Assembly: GCA_944392515.1 (NCBI GenBank) | Contig: CALXWV010000008.1 | Location: forward strand, 1 to 42,601 | Source of the DNA: an uncultured Clostridia bacterium | GTDB lineage: Bacteria > Bacillota > Clostridia > TANB77 > CAG-508 | Direction: 5' to 3' | DNA: 42,601 nucleotides | Shown: piece by piece, positions 3,724 through 42,049 of the stretch | Layout: each line of letters opens with the position of its first letter | Numbering within the stretch: the first letter of the stretch is position 1 | Notes under the pieces: generated by a model | What the model saw: only the letters and a program-made list of their open reading frames with translations | Databases searched by the model: none | Told to the model about the DNA's origin: nothing | Translations under genes and position numbers: made by a program

Positions 3724-3751
3724 ATTATTTCATAGCTTCTTCTACTGCAAC
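3724..3751. other. attL core (28-bp direct repeat)
   Basis: These 28 bases are identical to 41041-41068, where they form the last codons and stop of the GGGtGRT gene. Identity stops abruptly on both sides (C versus G before, T versus A after). The copy here is a detached 3' end with no gene in front of it, which fixes this side as the junction far from the target gene. Confidence 0.93.
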
Positions 3752-3827: not shown

Positions 3828-3998
3828 CTATTTTAGTTCTTTTATCAGCTTATTAATATATTTTTCTTCTTTATTTGCTTTTGCATCTCTTACATTTTGA
3901 ATAGTTTCTTCAATATATTCTTTTGTTTCTTCATACTCCTGTAACTCTAATTTAGATTTTATTGTTTCTAGTATTTTAATAACTTTGTTTTTATTCAT
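3828..3998 (-). CDS. Small charged protein, 56 aa, unknown
   Basis: A short gene too small for usual length cut-offs, starting at ATG 3998 behind a GAGGT ribosome site. It begins MNKNKVIKILETIKSKLEL and is rich in Lys and Glu with an all-helical, coiled-coil-like pattern and no membrane segment. It is divergent from the XRE gene and shares with it the inverted-repeat region 4021-4076, so the two are probably co-regulated. It is the prophage gene nearest attL, a place where lysogeny-expressed cargo genes are common. I do not recognise a family. Confidence 0.6.
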   Translation of the reverse strand: MNKNKVIKILETIKSKLELQEYEETKEYIEETIQNVRDAKANKEEKYINKLIKELK

Positions 3999-4100: not shown

Positions 4101-4301
4101 ATGATATATATTAGAATTAATGAAATTTTAAAAGAAAAAAATAAAAGTAAGTATTGGTTTGTAAAAAATATGGAAGGCAGTTATCAATCTTTAAGCAAAT
4201 TAATGAATAATGAAACTAATAGTATTTACTTTGAAACACTAGAAAAAGCATGTGATGTTCTAAAATGTAAGCCTGGCGATATTATAAAAATTATAAAATA
4301 A
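4101..4301 (+). CDS. Cro/C1-type helix-turn-helix regulator, 66 aa
   Basis: A single XRE-like DNA-binding domain of the short HTH_26 (YozG-like) type. Residues 3-20 (YIRINEILKEKNKSKYWF) form the first helices, LSKLMNNETNSIYFETLEKACDVLKCKPGDII the recognition part and the typical end. The ribosome site AAGGAG lies 8 nt before the ATG. It is one of few plus-strand prophage genes and faces an inverted-repeat array, which suggests autoregulation. It is separate from the main immunity switch near the integrase, so it likely controls the left-end cargo genes. A hairpin terminator follows at once. Confidence 0.8.
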   Translation: MIYIRINEILKEKNKSKYWFVKNMEGSYQSLSKLMNNETNSIYFETLEKACDVLKCKPGDIIKIIK

Positions 4302-4330
4302 AGCACAGCCATTATTGGCTTGCTTTATTT
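4302..4330 (+). terminator. Terminator after the XRE gene
   Basis: AAAGCA-C-AGCC pairs with GGCT-TGCTTT across a 6-nt loop with one bulge, followed by ATTTTTAT. It lies between the convergent XRE and Spo0E-like genes. Confidence 0.7.
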
Positions 4331-4339
4331 TTATGACAA

Positions 4340-4474
4340 TTATTTTCTATACATTTCTATAATGTATTTATCAAGTATTTGACTTTCCTTAAGGATTTTA
4401 TAATAGTCAGCATTGCATTCTATTAAGTAATATATTTTTATCTTATGTATTATTATTAATAAAATTAATATCAT
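4340..4474 (-). CDS. Spo0E-like aspartyl-phosphate phosphatase, 44 aa
   Basis: A 44-residue protein too short for usual length cut-offs. After a hydrophobic start (MILILLIIIHKIKIYYLIE) it ends with KESQILDKYIIEMYRK, which carries the SQxLDxxI motif of Spo0E-family phosphatases. These small helical-hairpin proteins dephosphorylate Spo0A~P and so delay sporulation. Length and helix-loop-helix layout fit the family, although the first helix is unusually hydrophobic. The ribosome site AGGAGGT is 6 nt before the ATG. It is isolated by terminators on both sides and has its own promoter with two Spo0A boxes. Phosphatase activity is inferred from the motif only. Confidence 0.72.
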   Translation of the reverse strand: MILILLIIIHKIKIYYLIECNADYYKILKESQILDKYIIEMYRK

Positions 4475-4491
4475 ACATACCTCCTAATAAA

Positions 4492-4535
4492 ATTATACAC
4501 CATTATGTTAATTATTTGTGTCGAAATTTGTCGAA
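4492..4535 (-). promoter_or_regulatory. Spo0A-type promoter of the Spo0E-like gene (two 0A boxes)
   Basis: Two TGTCGAA sequences (4519-4525 and 4529-4535) lie in tandem exactly 10 bp apart. Both match the Spo0A box consensus TGNCGAA. On the minus strand a perfect TATAAT (4492-4497) follows with only a poor -35 (CACAAA at 4515-4520). Boxes overlapping or abutting a weak -35 are the arrangement of Spo0A-activated promoters such as spoIIG. The start codon lies 18 nt beyond the -10. Confidence 0.72.
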
Positions 4536-4540
4536 AACCA

Positions 4541-4575
4541 AAAAAAAGAGGTAGACTGTAATAGCCTACCTCTTT
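4541..4575 (-). terminator. Terminator of the late operon
   Basis: AAAGAGGTAG (4545-4554) pairs perfectly with CTACCTCTTT (4566-4575). On the minus strand the stem is followed by a run of T. It lies 6 nt beyond the endolysin stop codon and shields the Spo0E-like promoter from late transcription. Confidence 0.88.
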
Positions 4576-4580
4576 TATAT

Positions 4581-5930
4581 TTATCTTTTTTTACAGTAAT
4601 CTAAGCAAATCCAACCACTAGGAATTTTACCCCAGTTACCTGATACTTGACTAACTGTTACATTAACACCTTTTAAAAGTCCATTTGCACAATAGTTTCC
4701 TTTAGCTTTATTTTGGCTTCTTGCATTAGCAGTTAATTGCTTATAATTCTTTATTAAATAATCTGTACTTGGTCCTGTTCTGACATGAAGTAAAGATGCT
4801 GTAACTGTGTAAGAACCCTTTGTATATTTTTTACTATTAGATGTAGATGGTACTAAATAATCCGAGCATACCCATCTGTTGTCTCCTATTCTACTCCAGT
4901 TGCCTGATGTTTCATATACCGTTACTCTGTCGCCATTATATAACTTATCTACAACTGTTCCCCAGATACCATTTCTTACATTTAACCTGGTATTTACTTT
5001 TACATATCTAGTATAAGTAGATGTTGTAACTGTACTTGTATTTTCTTGTACATTTCCAGAATGTTTATAAGCAAAGAATCCTCTATAATTTGCATAATTT
5101 CTGAAGTTATCTATACTACAATAAACTATGTTTCCATCTACAGTTACTTTGCCACGTCTTGTAGAAGTATCAAATTTTCCAGCATACAAATATGGATCAT
5201 ATATTTTTATGTTGTCCCCTTCTATTCCTACTAATACTATAAAATGTCCTCCAGATGTGAATAAGCCATTTCCTACACTGGCTATTACATAATTGTTATT
5301 TTTTAATAAGTTTATTGCTGTATCTAAGCTAGAGGTCTCTTGATACTCTATATCAAATACATCCGCAACCCATCTGAATGCTGACCAGTATGTACCCGAA
5401 TTTGCAGAACGATAACCGTATTGAACAAATAAATCTCCCATTTTATCTGGCGTAATTGTACCCTTTATAGCAGTTACAATCATTGCAGCACTTGTTGGTC
5501 CACATCCAGATGTACCTATTGTTTGTGAGTTGTCTCCAACTGCTGTATAAACATGATTCTTCCAACGGCTATCTATTTGACTATAATAAGTAAGACCTGT
5601 ATAATTACCTAAACTAATAGAAGGATATTCTGTAGTTCCATTGTAGGCAATCTCTCCCTGTAGTTCAAATGCCTCATCTTCTACTTCTTGCTCAAGATTT
5701 TTCTCATCTTCTGTTGTCTGCTCTGGAATTTCTGTGCTAGGCAATTCTTCTATTTCTTCATTACTCATATTATATGTAGTAATATAATTTTTTAATTCAT
5801 TTATTACCTCTCCAGCAATATTCTCTGATGTATTGTCTTTATTAATATTATAAAATCCTAATCCACTTAAAATAGCTACAATAATTGTAGCTATTATCAA
5901 AACAATATTTCTTTTTTTGTTCTCGTTCAT
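4581..5930 (-). CDS. Endolysin: anchored C39-like peptidase with two SH3 domains
   Basis: A 449-residue protein, last gene of the late operon. A signal-anchor helix at residues 9-26 is followed by an acidic linker (40-100). A papain-like C39-type domain at about 113-275 has the Cys in GTSGCGPTSAAM (C143), the His in GGHFIVLVG (H229) and the Asp in IKIYDP (D245). Two bacterial SH3 domains follow (about 305-360 and 370-449; TRLNVRNGIWG, LLHVRTGPSTDY), which bind cell wall. It should cleave peptide cross-links of peptidoglycan at lysis. The N-terminal helix suggests export or membrane tethering (a SAR-like endolysin) rather than purely holin-dependent release. Confidence 0.88.
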   Translation of the reverse strand: MNENKKRNIVLIIATIIVAILSGLGFYNINKDNTSENIAGEVINELKNYITTYNMSNEEIEELPSTEIPEQTTEDEKNLEQEVEDEAFELQGEIAYNGTTEYPSISLGNYTGLTYYSQIDSRWKNHVYTAVGDNSQTIGTSGCGPTSAAMIVTAIKGTITPDKMGDLFVQYGYRSANSGTYWSAFRWVADVFDIEYQETSSLDTAINLLKNNNYVIASVGNGLFTSGGHFIVLVGIEGDNIKIYDPYLYAGKFDTSTRRGKVTVDGNIVYCSIDNFRNYANYRGFFAYKHSGNVQENTSTVTTSTYTRYVKVNTRLNVRNGIWGTVVDKLYNGDRVTVYETSGNWSRIGDNRWVCSDYLVPSTSNSKKYTKGSYTVTASLLHVRTGPSTDYLIKNYKQLTANARSQNKAKGNYCANGLLKGVNVTVSQVSGNWGKIPSGWICLDYCKKR

Positions 5931-39755: not shown

Positions 39756-39857
39756 ATAGATAACCACTAAAGTGATTATGTTTGTATTATATATGAACAT
39801 ACTTCATTTTTCAAGTGGTGGTAAGAAAATTTTTGAAAAATGGAGGTTTTTTATTTT

Positions 39858-40892
39858 ATGAAAATGCCAAATGGATTCGGTGGAATCACTAAACTATCTG
39901 GCAAAAGAAGAAATCCTTATAGAGTCAGAAAAACAAGAGGCTGGACAGAAGATGGTAAACAACTTTATGACACTATAGGTTATTATAAAACAAGAGAAGA
40001 AGCTTTAAAGGCATTAGCAAATTATAATGAAAATCCTTATGATTTAAAAACAAATAATATGACTTTTGATGATGTATATAATAAATGGTCTGAAGAACAC
40101 TTTGAAGAAATCGTGCCATCTGCAGTTAGAACATGGAAAGCTGCATATAAATATTGTTCTTCTTTGTATAATCTGAGATTTAAAGACATAAGAGTAGAAC
40201 ATCTCGAAGGAACAATCAAAAATGCTGAAGTAGGACAAAATACAAAACAAAGAATAAAAAGCTTATTTAATCTTATGTATAAATGGGCTATGAAGCATGA
40301 AATAGTTAATAAAGATTATGCTCAACTTTGCAATCCTGTTCCTAAAGGAGCACGCCAAATAGAAAGAATACCTTTTAATGATGATGAAATTAAAATTTTA
40401 TGGAATAATATAGATTTTCCATTTGTAAATATGATTCTTATTGATATATATTCTGGCTGGAGACCTCAAGAGCTAGCTATATTAAAAACTGCAGATATTA
40501 ATTTAGAAAAAGGATACTTCAAAGGTGGATTAAAAACTGATGCTGGAAAGAATAGAATTGTACCTATCCATTCTTGCATATTGGATCTAGTTAAAGAATT
40601 ATATAATCCAAATAATTTACAACTTTTTAATGATTACAATGGTCAGCAATGTACATTAATGACTTATGATAAATATAGAAATAGATTCAATAAAGTTATG
40701 CAAAAATTTAATATGAAACATAGGCCACATGATTGTAGACACACTTTTATAACAAAAGCTAAAGATGCAGGTATAAACGAATATGTTTTAAAACTAATTG
40801 TAGGCCATACTATCAATGATATAACTGAAAAAGTTTATACTCACAGAGAATTAGAAAATTTAAAAGAAGAAATAGAAAAGATAAAAAAATAA
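39858..40892 (+). CDS. int: Tyrosine-family phage integrase
   Basis: About 344 residues from ATG 39858 (GGAGG 10 nt upstream); an ATG at 39840 lies before the ribosome site. An N-terminal AP2-like arm-binding domain (GGITKLSGKRRNPYRVR, GYYKTREEALKALANYN), a SAM-like core-binding part and a catalytic domain with R202 (GWRPQELA), K226 (GGLKTDAGKNR), H291-x-x-R294 (HDCRHTF), H317 (GHTIND) and nucleophile Y327 (KVYTH). It recombines the 28-bp core in the 3' end of GGGtGRT. It lies 149 bp from attR. Confidence 0.94.
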   Translation: MKMPNGFGGITKLSGKRRNPYRVRKTRGWTEDGKQLYDTIGYYKTREEALKALANYNENPYDLKTNNMTFDDVYNKWSEEHFEEIVPSAVRTWKAAYKYCSSLYNLRFKDIRVEHLEGTIKNAEVGQNTKQRIKSLFNLMYKWAMKHEIVNKDYAQLCNPVPKGARQIERIPFNDDEIKILWNNIDFPFVNMILIDIYSGWRPQELAILKTADINLEKGYFKGGLKTDAGKNRIVPIHSCILDLVKELYNPNNLQLFNDYNGQQCTLMTYDKYRNRFNKVMQKFNMKHRPHDCRHTFITKAKDAGINEYVLKLIVGHTINDITEKVYTHRELENLKEEIEKIKK

Positions 40893-41040: not shown

Positions 41041-41068
41041 ATTATTTCATAGCTTCTTCTACTGCAAC
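41041..41068. other. attR core (28-bp direct repeat, 3' end of GGGtGRT)
   Basis: Identical to 3724-3751. It contains the stop codon (41042-41044) and the last eight codons of the GGGtGRT gene. Since the coding end is inside the shared core, the gene reads unchanged before and after integration. Confidence 0.93.
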
Positions 41069-42049
41069 AGCTACTGCAACTGATGCACCAACCATTGGGT
41101 TATTACCCATTCCAATTAGTCCCATCATTTCAACATGAGCTGGTACTGATGAAGAACCTGCGAATTGTGCATCTGAGTGCATTCTTCCCATTGTATCTGT
41201 CATACCATATGAAGCAGGACCTGCTGCCATATTATCTGGATGAAGAGTTCTTCCTGTTCCACCACCTGATGCAACTGAGAAGTATTTCTTTCCTTGCTCT
41301 AATCTTTCTTTCTTATATGTTCCTGCAACTGGATGTTGGAATCTTGTTGGGTTTGTAGAGTTACCTGTTATAGAAATATCTACATCTTCAAGCCACATTA
41401 TTGCAACACCTTCTCTAACATCATTTGCACCATAGCATTTAACTTTGCTTCTATCACCTGTTGAATATGGTATTTCTTCAATAACGTTTACTTTTCCTGT
41501 ATAGAAATCAAAATCTGTTTTTACATATGTAAATCCATTTACTCTTGATATAATTTGAGCTGCATCTTTTCCAAGACCATTTAATATAACTCTTAGAGGA
41601 GTTTTTCTAACTTTGTTAGCTGAATTTGCAATTCCTATTGCTCCTTCTGCTGCTGCAAAGCTTTCATGTCCTGCTAAAAATGCAAAACATTTTGTATCTT
41701 CTGAAAGTAGCATTGATGCTAAATTTCCATGTCCTAAACCAACTTTTCTATCATCTGCAACAGAACCTGGTATACAAAAAGCTTGTAAACCTTCTCCTAT
41801 AGCTTTTGCTGCATCTGATGCTTTTTTGCATCCTTTTTTTATTGCTATTGCTGCACCTAATGTATATGCCCAGCATGCATTTTCAAAACAAATTGGTTGA
41901 ACTCCTTTTACTATTTCATATGGGTTGAAACCTTTATCTGTACATATTTTTAATGCATCTTCAAAATCTTTAATTCCGTATTTTTCCATTACTGGTTTAA
42001 TTTGATTTATTCTTCTTTCATAACTTTCAAATGTTACTGCCATTTTCAT
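41042..42049 (-). CDS. GGGtGRT protein (Fe-S-associated, anaerobe-specific)
   Basis: 335 residues with the name-giving motif ASGGGTGRTLHPDNMAAGP, plus GYNPYE-like IKDFEDALKICTDKGFNPYEIVKGVQPICFENACWAY and a glycine-rich C-terminus. The family is known from strict anaerobes and is regularly beside a NifU-like scaffold gene, as here; its reaction is not established to my knowledge. AGGAGGAA is 6 nt before the ATG. Its 3' end is the phage attachment site and stays intact. Confidence 0.9.
   Translation of the reverse strand: MKMAVTFESYERRINQIKPVMEKYGIKDFEDALKICTDKGFNPYEIVKGVQPICFENACWAYTLGAAIAIKKGCKKASDAAKAIGEGLQAFCIPGSVADDRKVGLGHGNLASMLLSEDTKCFAFLAGHESFAAAEGAIGIANSANKVRKTPLRVILNGLGKDAAQIISRVNGFTYVKTDFDFYTGKVNVIEEIPYSTGDRSKVKCYGANDVREGVAIMWLEDVDISITGNSTNPTRFQHPVAGTYKKERLEQGKKYFSVASGGGTGRTLHPDNMAAGPASYGMTDTMGRMHSDAQFAGSSSVPAHVEMMGLIGMGNNPMVGASVAVAVAVEEAMK

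Follow-up and report, generated by a model that had tools for sequence, protein, structure and literature searches.

Can a resident phage sense its host's decision to sporulate and act back on that decision? The question is raised by a gene of 44 codons in a stretch of 42,601 nucleotides from an uncultured Clostridia bacterium (the window, below), which the first-pass annotation had read as a prophage-borne phosphatase gene behind tandem Spo0A boxes (0A boxes). Proteins of the Spo0E family dephosphorylate Spo0A~P and hold back spore formation, and SQxLD is the signature motif of Spo0E-like phosphatases (PF09388).

A cassette at the end of a prophage

The window holds genes for integrase, terminase, tape-measure protein and lysin, and an exact direct repeat of 28 bp, with copies at 3724 and 41041, encloses them. 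Integrase, structural genes and att repeats, as expected of a temperate prophage, are all present, and the small gene lies within the repeats, bearing out its proposed prophage location. Its cassette follows the lysin gene as the next transcription unit, about 590 bp from the att core. The elements and their neighbours are as follows.

3724 to 3751, no strand: att core on the cassette side of the prophage, first copy of the 28-bp exact direct repeat
4101 to 4301, plus strand: Cro/C1-type HTH protein, convergent neighbour (PF13443, E = 4.9e-14)
4295 to 4331 (about), no strand: hairpin separating the cassette from the convergent HTH gene (dG -17.7, z -4.72)
4340 to 4474, minus strand: Spo0E-like ORF of 44 aa, SQxLD motif at residues 31 to 35
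4480 to 4485, minus strand: ribosome binding site AGGAGG, from the sequence
4492 to 4497, minus strand: -10 element TATAAT, from the sequence, 21 bp from the proximal 0A box
4519 to 4525, plus strand: proximal 0A box TGTCGAA, perfect match
4529 to 4535, plus strand: distal 0A box TGTCGAA, perfect match, 10-bp period
4544 to 4576, minus strand: lysin gene terminator and upstream insulator of the cassette, a 14-pair stem followed by a T tract (dG -18.9, z -5.83)
4581 to 5930, minus strand: lysin-like C39 peptidase/SH3 protein, upstream neighbour (PF13529, PF08239; phrog_1794 amidase)
39840 to 40892, plus strand: integrase (phrog_1, E = 1.6e-49; PF00589, E = 1.1e-13)
41041 to 41068, no strand: att core on the integrase side, second copy of the 28-bp repeat, coinciding with the 3' end of a gene at 41042 to 42049 (minus strand)

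The reading frame starts with ATG, 5 nt downstream of AGGAGG, and contains the predicted SQxLDxxI motif as SQILDKYI near its C-terminal end. Hairpins flank it on both sides, in agreement with the proposed insulation by two terminators; a simple terminator scan had recorded the one next to the HTH gene as no more than a 5-pair site. For the putative portal and capsid ORFs of the prophage, Pfam returned no match, and the window contains no tRNA. No near phage was found with a 6-kb piece of the prophage as query, and none of three protein queries found a relative among 50,697 phage records. A further ORF of 56 aa at the att end (3828 to 3998, minus strand) has a weak match to the SpoOB-type helical domain, with an E value of 0.0019 that is below cut-off.

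The promoter and its class

The two perfect 0A boxes, 10 bp apart, have no perfect counterpart elsewhere in the window, and the 1.38-Mb assembly contains a single further perfect pair, on contig C4. With two mismatches allowed, such pairs are not unusual there (12 matches versus eight for the reversed control). The C4 locus also holds an ORF that, by eye, resembles SpoVT. The -10 element is a perfect TATAAT with almost no -35, as had been described: the best hexamer at a spacing of 16 to 18 bp has four mismatches to TTGACA, and TCGACA, with one mismatch, lies inside the proximal box, 21 bp from the -10 element. While the sequence and 10-bp spacing of the boxes stood as annotated, their supposed overlap with the -35 region amounts to only 2 bp, between the proximal box and the standard 17-bp position.

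The host encodes a complete Spo0A of 272 aa, and a close alignment of its C-terminal part to 1fc3 and 1lq1 places the DNA-binding domain near that of known Spo0A. Spo0A_C scores over cut-off in all 31 genomes of the genus and SpoIVA in 26 of them; SpoIVA was not found in the window's own assembly, which is 77% complete. The host is likely spore-forming. C. difficile Spo0A binds TGTCGAA (PMC3485338, in the part available), and we consider it very probable that the predicted boxes would be bound by Spo0A here as well. An ORF on L004 (1471 to 1833, minus strand) and similar ORFs in the genus resemble a stand-alone Spo0A C-terminal part of about 120 aa without the receiver domain; such a protein could compete for 0A boxes.

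The arrangement is kept in relatives that were found by protein alone. A protein-only search of 38 genomes, own included, gave 12 matches in nine genomes, and in the three besides the window with E < 0.01 (L007, L008 and L009, all of the same genus) tandem boxes, with 0, 1 and 0 mismatches respectively, stand exactly 21 bp upstream of TATAAT. The L009 protein, only 32 to 33% identical, lies after a divergent lysin. Five of the eight weaker matches were inspected, and none of these five has a box pair with fewer than three mismatches. Searched for directly, the exact promoter pattern occurs at seven sites in six of 31 genus genomes, with none for the reversed control; three sites front a Spo0E-like gene and four no clear ORF. 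Promoters of this type without a clear ORF behind them, in the same or a near genus, are found at L110, L126, L146 and L151 (the first three being the same sites as L050, L053 and L054), and by eye they have in common some 110 nt of similar sequence that include an inverted repeat, possibly a Spo0A-controlled small RNA.

For wider scans, the spacing between box and TATAAT was left free within 19 to 23 bp, and reversed patterns served as controls in the genus genomes, the own assembly and viral contigs. Viral contigs, scanned by promoter only, gave 20 matches versus two for the reversed control, 19 of them with a spacing of 21 bp. Behind the 20 promoters are seven Spo0E-like ORFs, one member of a 57-aa family and three of a 56-aa family, both described below; the remaining nine front other or unclear ORFs. 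Genome contigs added at least 119 matches in at least 115 stretches, a sample of what exists. Among the 119 listed, the spacing is 21 bp in 91, 20 bp in 12, 22 bp in eight, 23 bp in five and 19 bp in three. Because the pattern had allowed 19 to 23 bp, we rejected the idea that the 21-bp spacing is an artefact of the search. The 91 listed 21-bp sites front seven Spo0E-like ORFs, 12 of the 57-aa family and 12 kinase-like ORFs, leaving 60 with genes outside these three profiles; behind the 28 listed sites with other spacings there was one kinase-like ORF (L152, 20 bp) and no member of the small families. Among the matches listed, all seven genome and all seven viral promoters of Spo0E type are at 21 bp.

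The genes behind this promoter class are informative in themselves. Among the 60 is spo0A itself (L118; TIGR02875, 248 bits), as are two sigma factor genes (L130 and L148), the former with SigE and SigK as its best NCBIfam matches, below their cut-offs. The kinase-like ORFs at 21 bp (L109, L115, L117, L136, L145, L147, L158, L164, L172, L176, L189 and L202), so called for their similarity to L115, itself one of the 12, come mostly from uncultured Bacilli; the six that were checked against Pfam have HisKA plus HATPase. Kinase-like genes behind Spo0A-type promoters would possibly exert positive feedback on Spo0A. That the class fronts spo0A and kinase-like ORFs fits activation by Spo0A. By eye, we also noted ComK-like ORFs (L191 and L194 at 21 bp, L210 at 20 bp) and an ORF resembling a stand-alone Spo0A C-domain (L193, 21 bp) behind promoters of the class. 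A different arrangement, with tandem boxes only 11 to 12 bp from TATAAT, fronts membrane or zinc-ribbon-like proteins in the viral contigs L060, L061, L065 and L067.

A search that started from the protein and ignored the promoter gave a similar picture. Protein alignments led to 23 viral loci, 20 of which have tandem boxes with at most three of 14 mismatches within 110 bases upstream, compared with 0.15% when these stretches are simply shuffled, a test that is not fully independent because the alignments were partly built from promoter-found proteins. The promoter scan had earlier led to this gene in seven of the 23 contigs, and one more contig is a duplicate. Among the 15 left, 12 pass, 11 of them also with a -10-like hexamer (at most two mismatches) at 21 bp; L220 passes in another register only, L223 retains one box, and L228 and L237 have no boxes within 260 bases upstream. 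To judge from these comparisons, tandem 0A boxes at a fixed 21 bp from TATAAT are no chance arrangement.

Binding could also mean repression: Spo0A~P would then shut off, once sporulation is under way, a Spo0E-like protein made during growth. With the boxes situated at the border of the -35 region, a repressor bound there could block the polymerase, and there are precedents, as Spo0A suppresses the phi29 lytic cycle via promoter sites (PMC9437464, in the part available) and the 0A boxes of the spo0A gene in B. subtilis serve mainly for repression (PMC12090719, likewise in part). However, the same portion of PMC12090719 describes 0A boxes upstream of spoIIG that stimulate transcription, and a repressor would not need the spacing of 21 bp seen in 91 of 119 listed genome matches. 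Moreover, all 76 distinct promoters have at least three mismatches in their best -35 at 16 to 18 bp (shuffled spacers give about the same), so their basal activity should be low, and repression sits poorly with a class that fronts spo0A and kinase-like ORFs. We therefore regard repression as rather unlikely and activation as probable; Spo0A-activated is our best reading of the class as a whole.

The protein and its relatives

The best Pfam match of the 44-aa ORF is PF09388 (Spo0E), with E = 0.0063 and 16.9 bits against a cut-off of 23; the profile search proposed in the first-pass annotation thus returned the expected family, but at a score below threshold. PF09388 is matched at E ≤ 0.1 by 14 of 16 aligned members, the window ORF included, the best value being 5e-7. 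One viral relative is above the cut-off (24.6 versus 23 bits) and another falls short by 0.3 bits. S31 and D35 of the SQxLD motif are invariant in all 16. While a single-sequence search with the ORF found only itself and one relative, a profile of the 16 proteins retrieved 475 proteins from public collections at E ≤ 0.01, and among the best 120 of these one bears the NCBI name Spo0E family phosphatase. Three Spo0E-like proteins were compared with PHROGs and two with NCBIfam, the window ORF being among them in both cases, and none was matched. A match to Gp45_2, of similar order to that of Spo0E and likewise weak, was rejected as the identity of the protein because it occurs in only one of the 16 members.

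In the predicted structure, the protein forms the two-helix hairpin expected of Spo0E (pLDDT 94.6). A fold comparison ranks 2c0s, the aspartic acid phosphate phosphatase of B. anthracis, tenth, with a full-length alignment to the 44-aa model at 25% identity. Because unrelated hairpins equal or outscore it, the two-helix hairpin being a common fold in the PDB, the fold is consistent with Spo0E and not diagnostic. Searching the PDB with a profile of 11 proteins (10 cassette proteins plus one chromosomal Spo0E) gave a single chain, 2bzb (E = 0.056), which we take to be a Spo0E-type structure; a chromosomal Spo0E as query gave chance-level matches only, with the solved Spo0E structures absent.

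The protein shares with the known Spo0E family its small two-helix form and its S-Q-x-L-D motif, and relatives match the Pfam model; it differs in being phage-borne and under its own tandem-box promoter, and the window copy scores below the cut-off. Membership seems remote but consistent, a reading supported by the relatives that bridge the gap to the Pfam model, and we are highly confident that the protein is Spo0E-like. One could still imagine that the promoter is real while the protein targets another response regulator or a sporulation kinase, its likeness to Spo0E being no more than a shared hairpin. The sub-threshold Pfam score and the abundance of hairpins in the PDB would allow for this, yet the invariant serine and aspartate, the PF09388 matches of most members and the relative named by NCBI speak against it, and we consider it unlikely. 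That the cassette is a relic or a random short ORF behind chance boxes, as its 44 aa and weak Pfam match might suggest, appears extremely improbable given the conservation of ORF and promoter across many contigs, the control scans and an excess of synonymous over amino-acid change (pN/pS of 0.33 against L007, and 0.11 to 0.65 across eight compared pairs).

A possible accessory slot and a predicted feedback loop

Of 15 Spo0E-type loci examined, 12 have a lysin or integrase homologue in the sequence retrieved around them, a count that leaves out L183 and L208 and for which the query integrases and the L162 peptidase were confirmed by Pfam. In L037 and L041 the cassette sits between lysin and integrase. 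No lysin or integrase homologue was found within the fetched stretch of L036, L161 and L173, and the last has chromosomal neighbours, so the cassette is not exclusive to phages.

Two further small families share the setting. Members of the 57-aa family (consensus KEAYEKSLQMIK...LLSATSLEYISRK) are preceded by this Spo0A-type promoter as well (L100, L103, L106, L119, L125, L127, L141, L157, L169, L179, L204, L206 and L033), adjoining the lysin in L157 and the integrase in L033. Four helices are predicted for it (pLDDT 89.8); the one member scanned matched no Pfam family over cut-off, and there is no convincing PDB relative. The other family, of 56 to 59 aa (MISKILRGKEKD...), follows tandem or triple boxes in the viral contigs L035, L039, L045, L062 and L066, near an integrase in L045 and L066. 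By eye, L140 and L214 resemble it. The balance tips slightly towards a joint reading of these loci, in which Clostridia-type temperate phages would share a Spo0A-sensing slot by the lysin, att site and integrase, with a stereotyped promoter and interchangeable small proteins: Spo0E-like phosphatases, the four-helix 57-aa family and the 56-aa family. If true, this would be a class of phage genes that is switched on by, and acts back on, the host's sporulation decision.

A counterpart exists on host chromosomes. A chromosomal Spo0E scores over the Pfam cut-off in 23 of 31 genus genomes (L001, L072-L093) and, like the cassette, its gene has a tandem-box-like pair upstream, with at most three mismatches in 18 of the 23 and at most one in eight. 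These pairs differ in that they point in the opposite direction, lie 116 to 186 bases before the profile match and do not belong to the 21-bp class. Control of Spo0E by Spo0A may therefore be an old host circuit, of which phages would carry a different promoter form. The L001 contig also encodes two small membrane proteins that, by eye, resemble conjugation pilins.

How the circuit would run can be sketched. Rising host Spo0A~P would bind the tandem 0A boxes and recruit RNA polymerase to a promoter without a -35. The two-helix phage protein would then dock on Spo0A~P and remove its phosphate, as known Spo0E proteins do, closing a negative feedback loop by which sporulation would be delayed or aborted. 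Such a loop may act in the lysogen, or at once when a phage enters a cell that is turning towards sporulation; the host would be kept vegetative and fit for phage growth, to the gain of lysogen or entering phage. For this whole predicted chain, from induction of the phage phosphatase by Spo0A~P to dephosphorylation of Spo0A and delayed sporulation, we estimate a probability of about two in three.

Parts of the circuit have precedents. Phage Spo0E homologues beside RRNPP quorum-sensing genes have been proposed to manipulate sporulation (PMC10075063), and Brevibacillus phage SecTim467 has a Spo0E homologue, as an annotation (PMC4909266); the accessible portions of these two papers describe no Spo0A boxes on the phage gene. 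In the former, the proposed control is quorum sensing, as opposed to the Spo0A-type promoter here. Promoters of phi29, as far as the available part of PMC9437464 tells, likewise read host Spo0A, but that phage is virulent and its lytic cycle is suppressed by Spo0A, whereas here Spo0A is predicted to induce a gene that acts back. Gut phages, according to the part available of PMC10294663, carry sporulation sigma factors and a truncated spo0A and, similar to the cassette, may redirect sporulation; the word Spo0E is absent from the main text of that paper. A literature search, with most subscription journals and bioRxiv outside its range, turned up no paper that describes Spo0A boxes at the Spo0E gene of a phage. 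Phage Spo0E genes and phage Spo0A sites are thus each known, and a conserved phage cassette that joins the two appears to be new.

The circuit is tiny and self-contained, and its promoter offers a search key for more phage genes of this class, one that has already yielded the 57-aa and 56-aa families. Sporulation limits phage growth and shapes the spread and persistence of many gut bacteria. If our reading is true, phages monitor the master regulator of sporulation and act back on that very protein, forming a closed loop between virus and host over cell fate.
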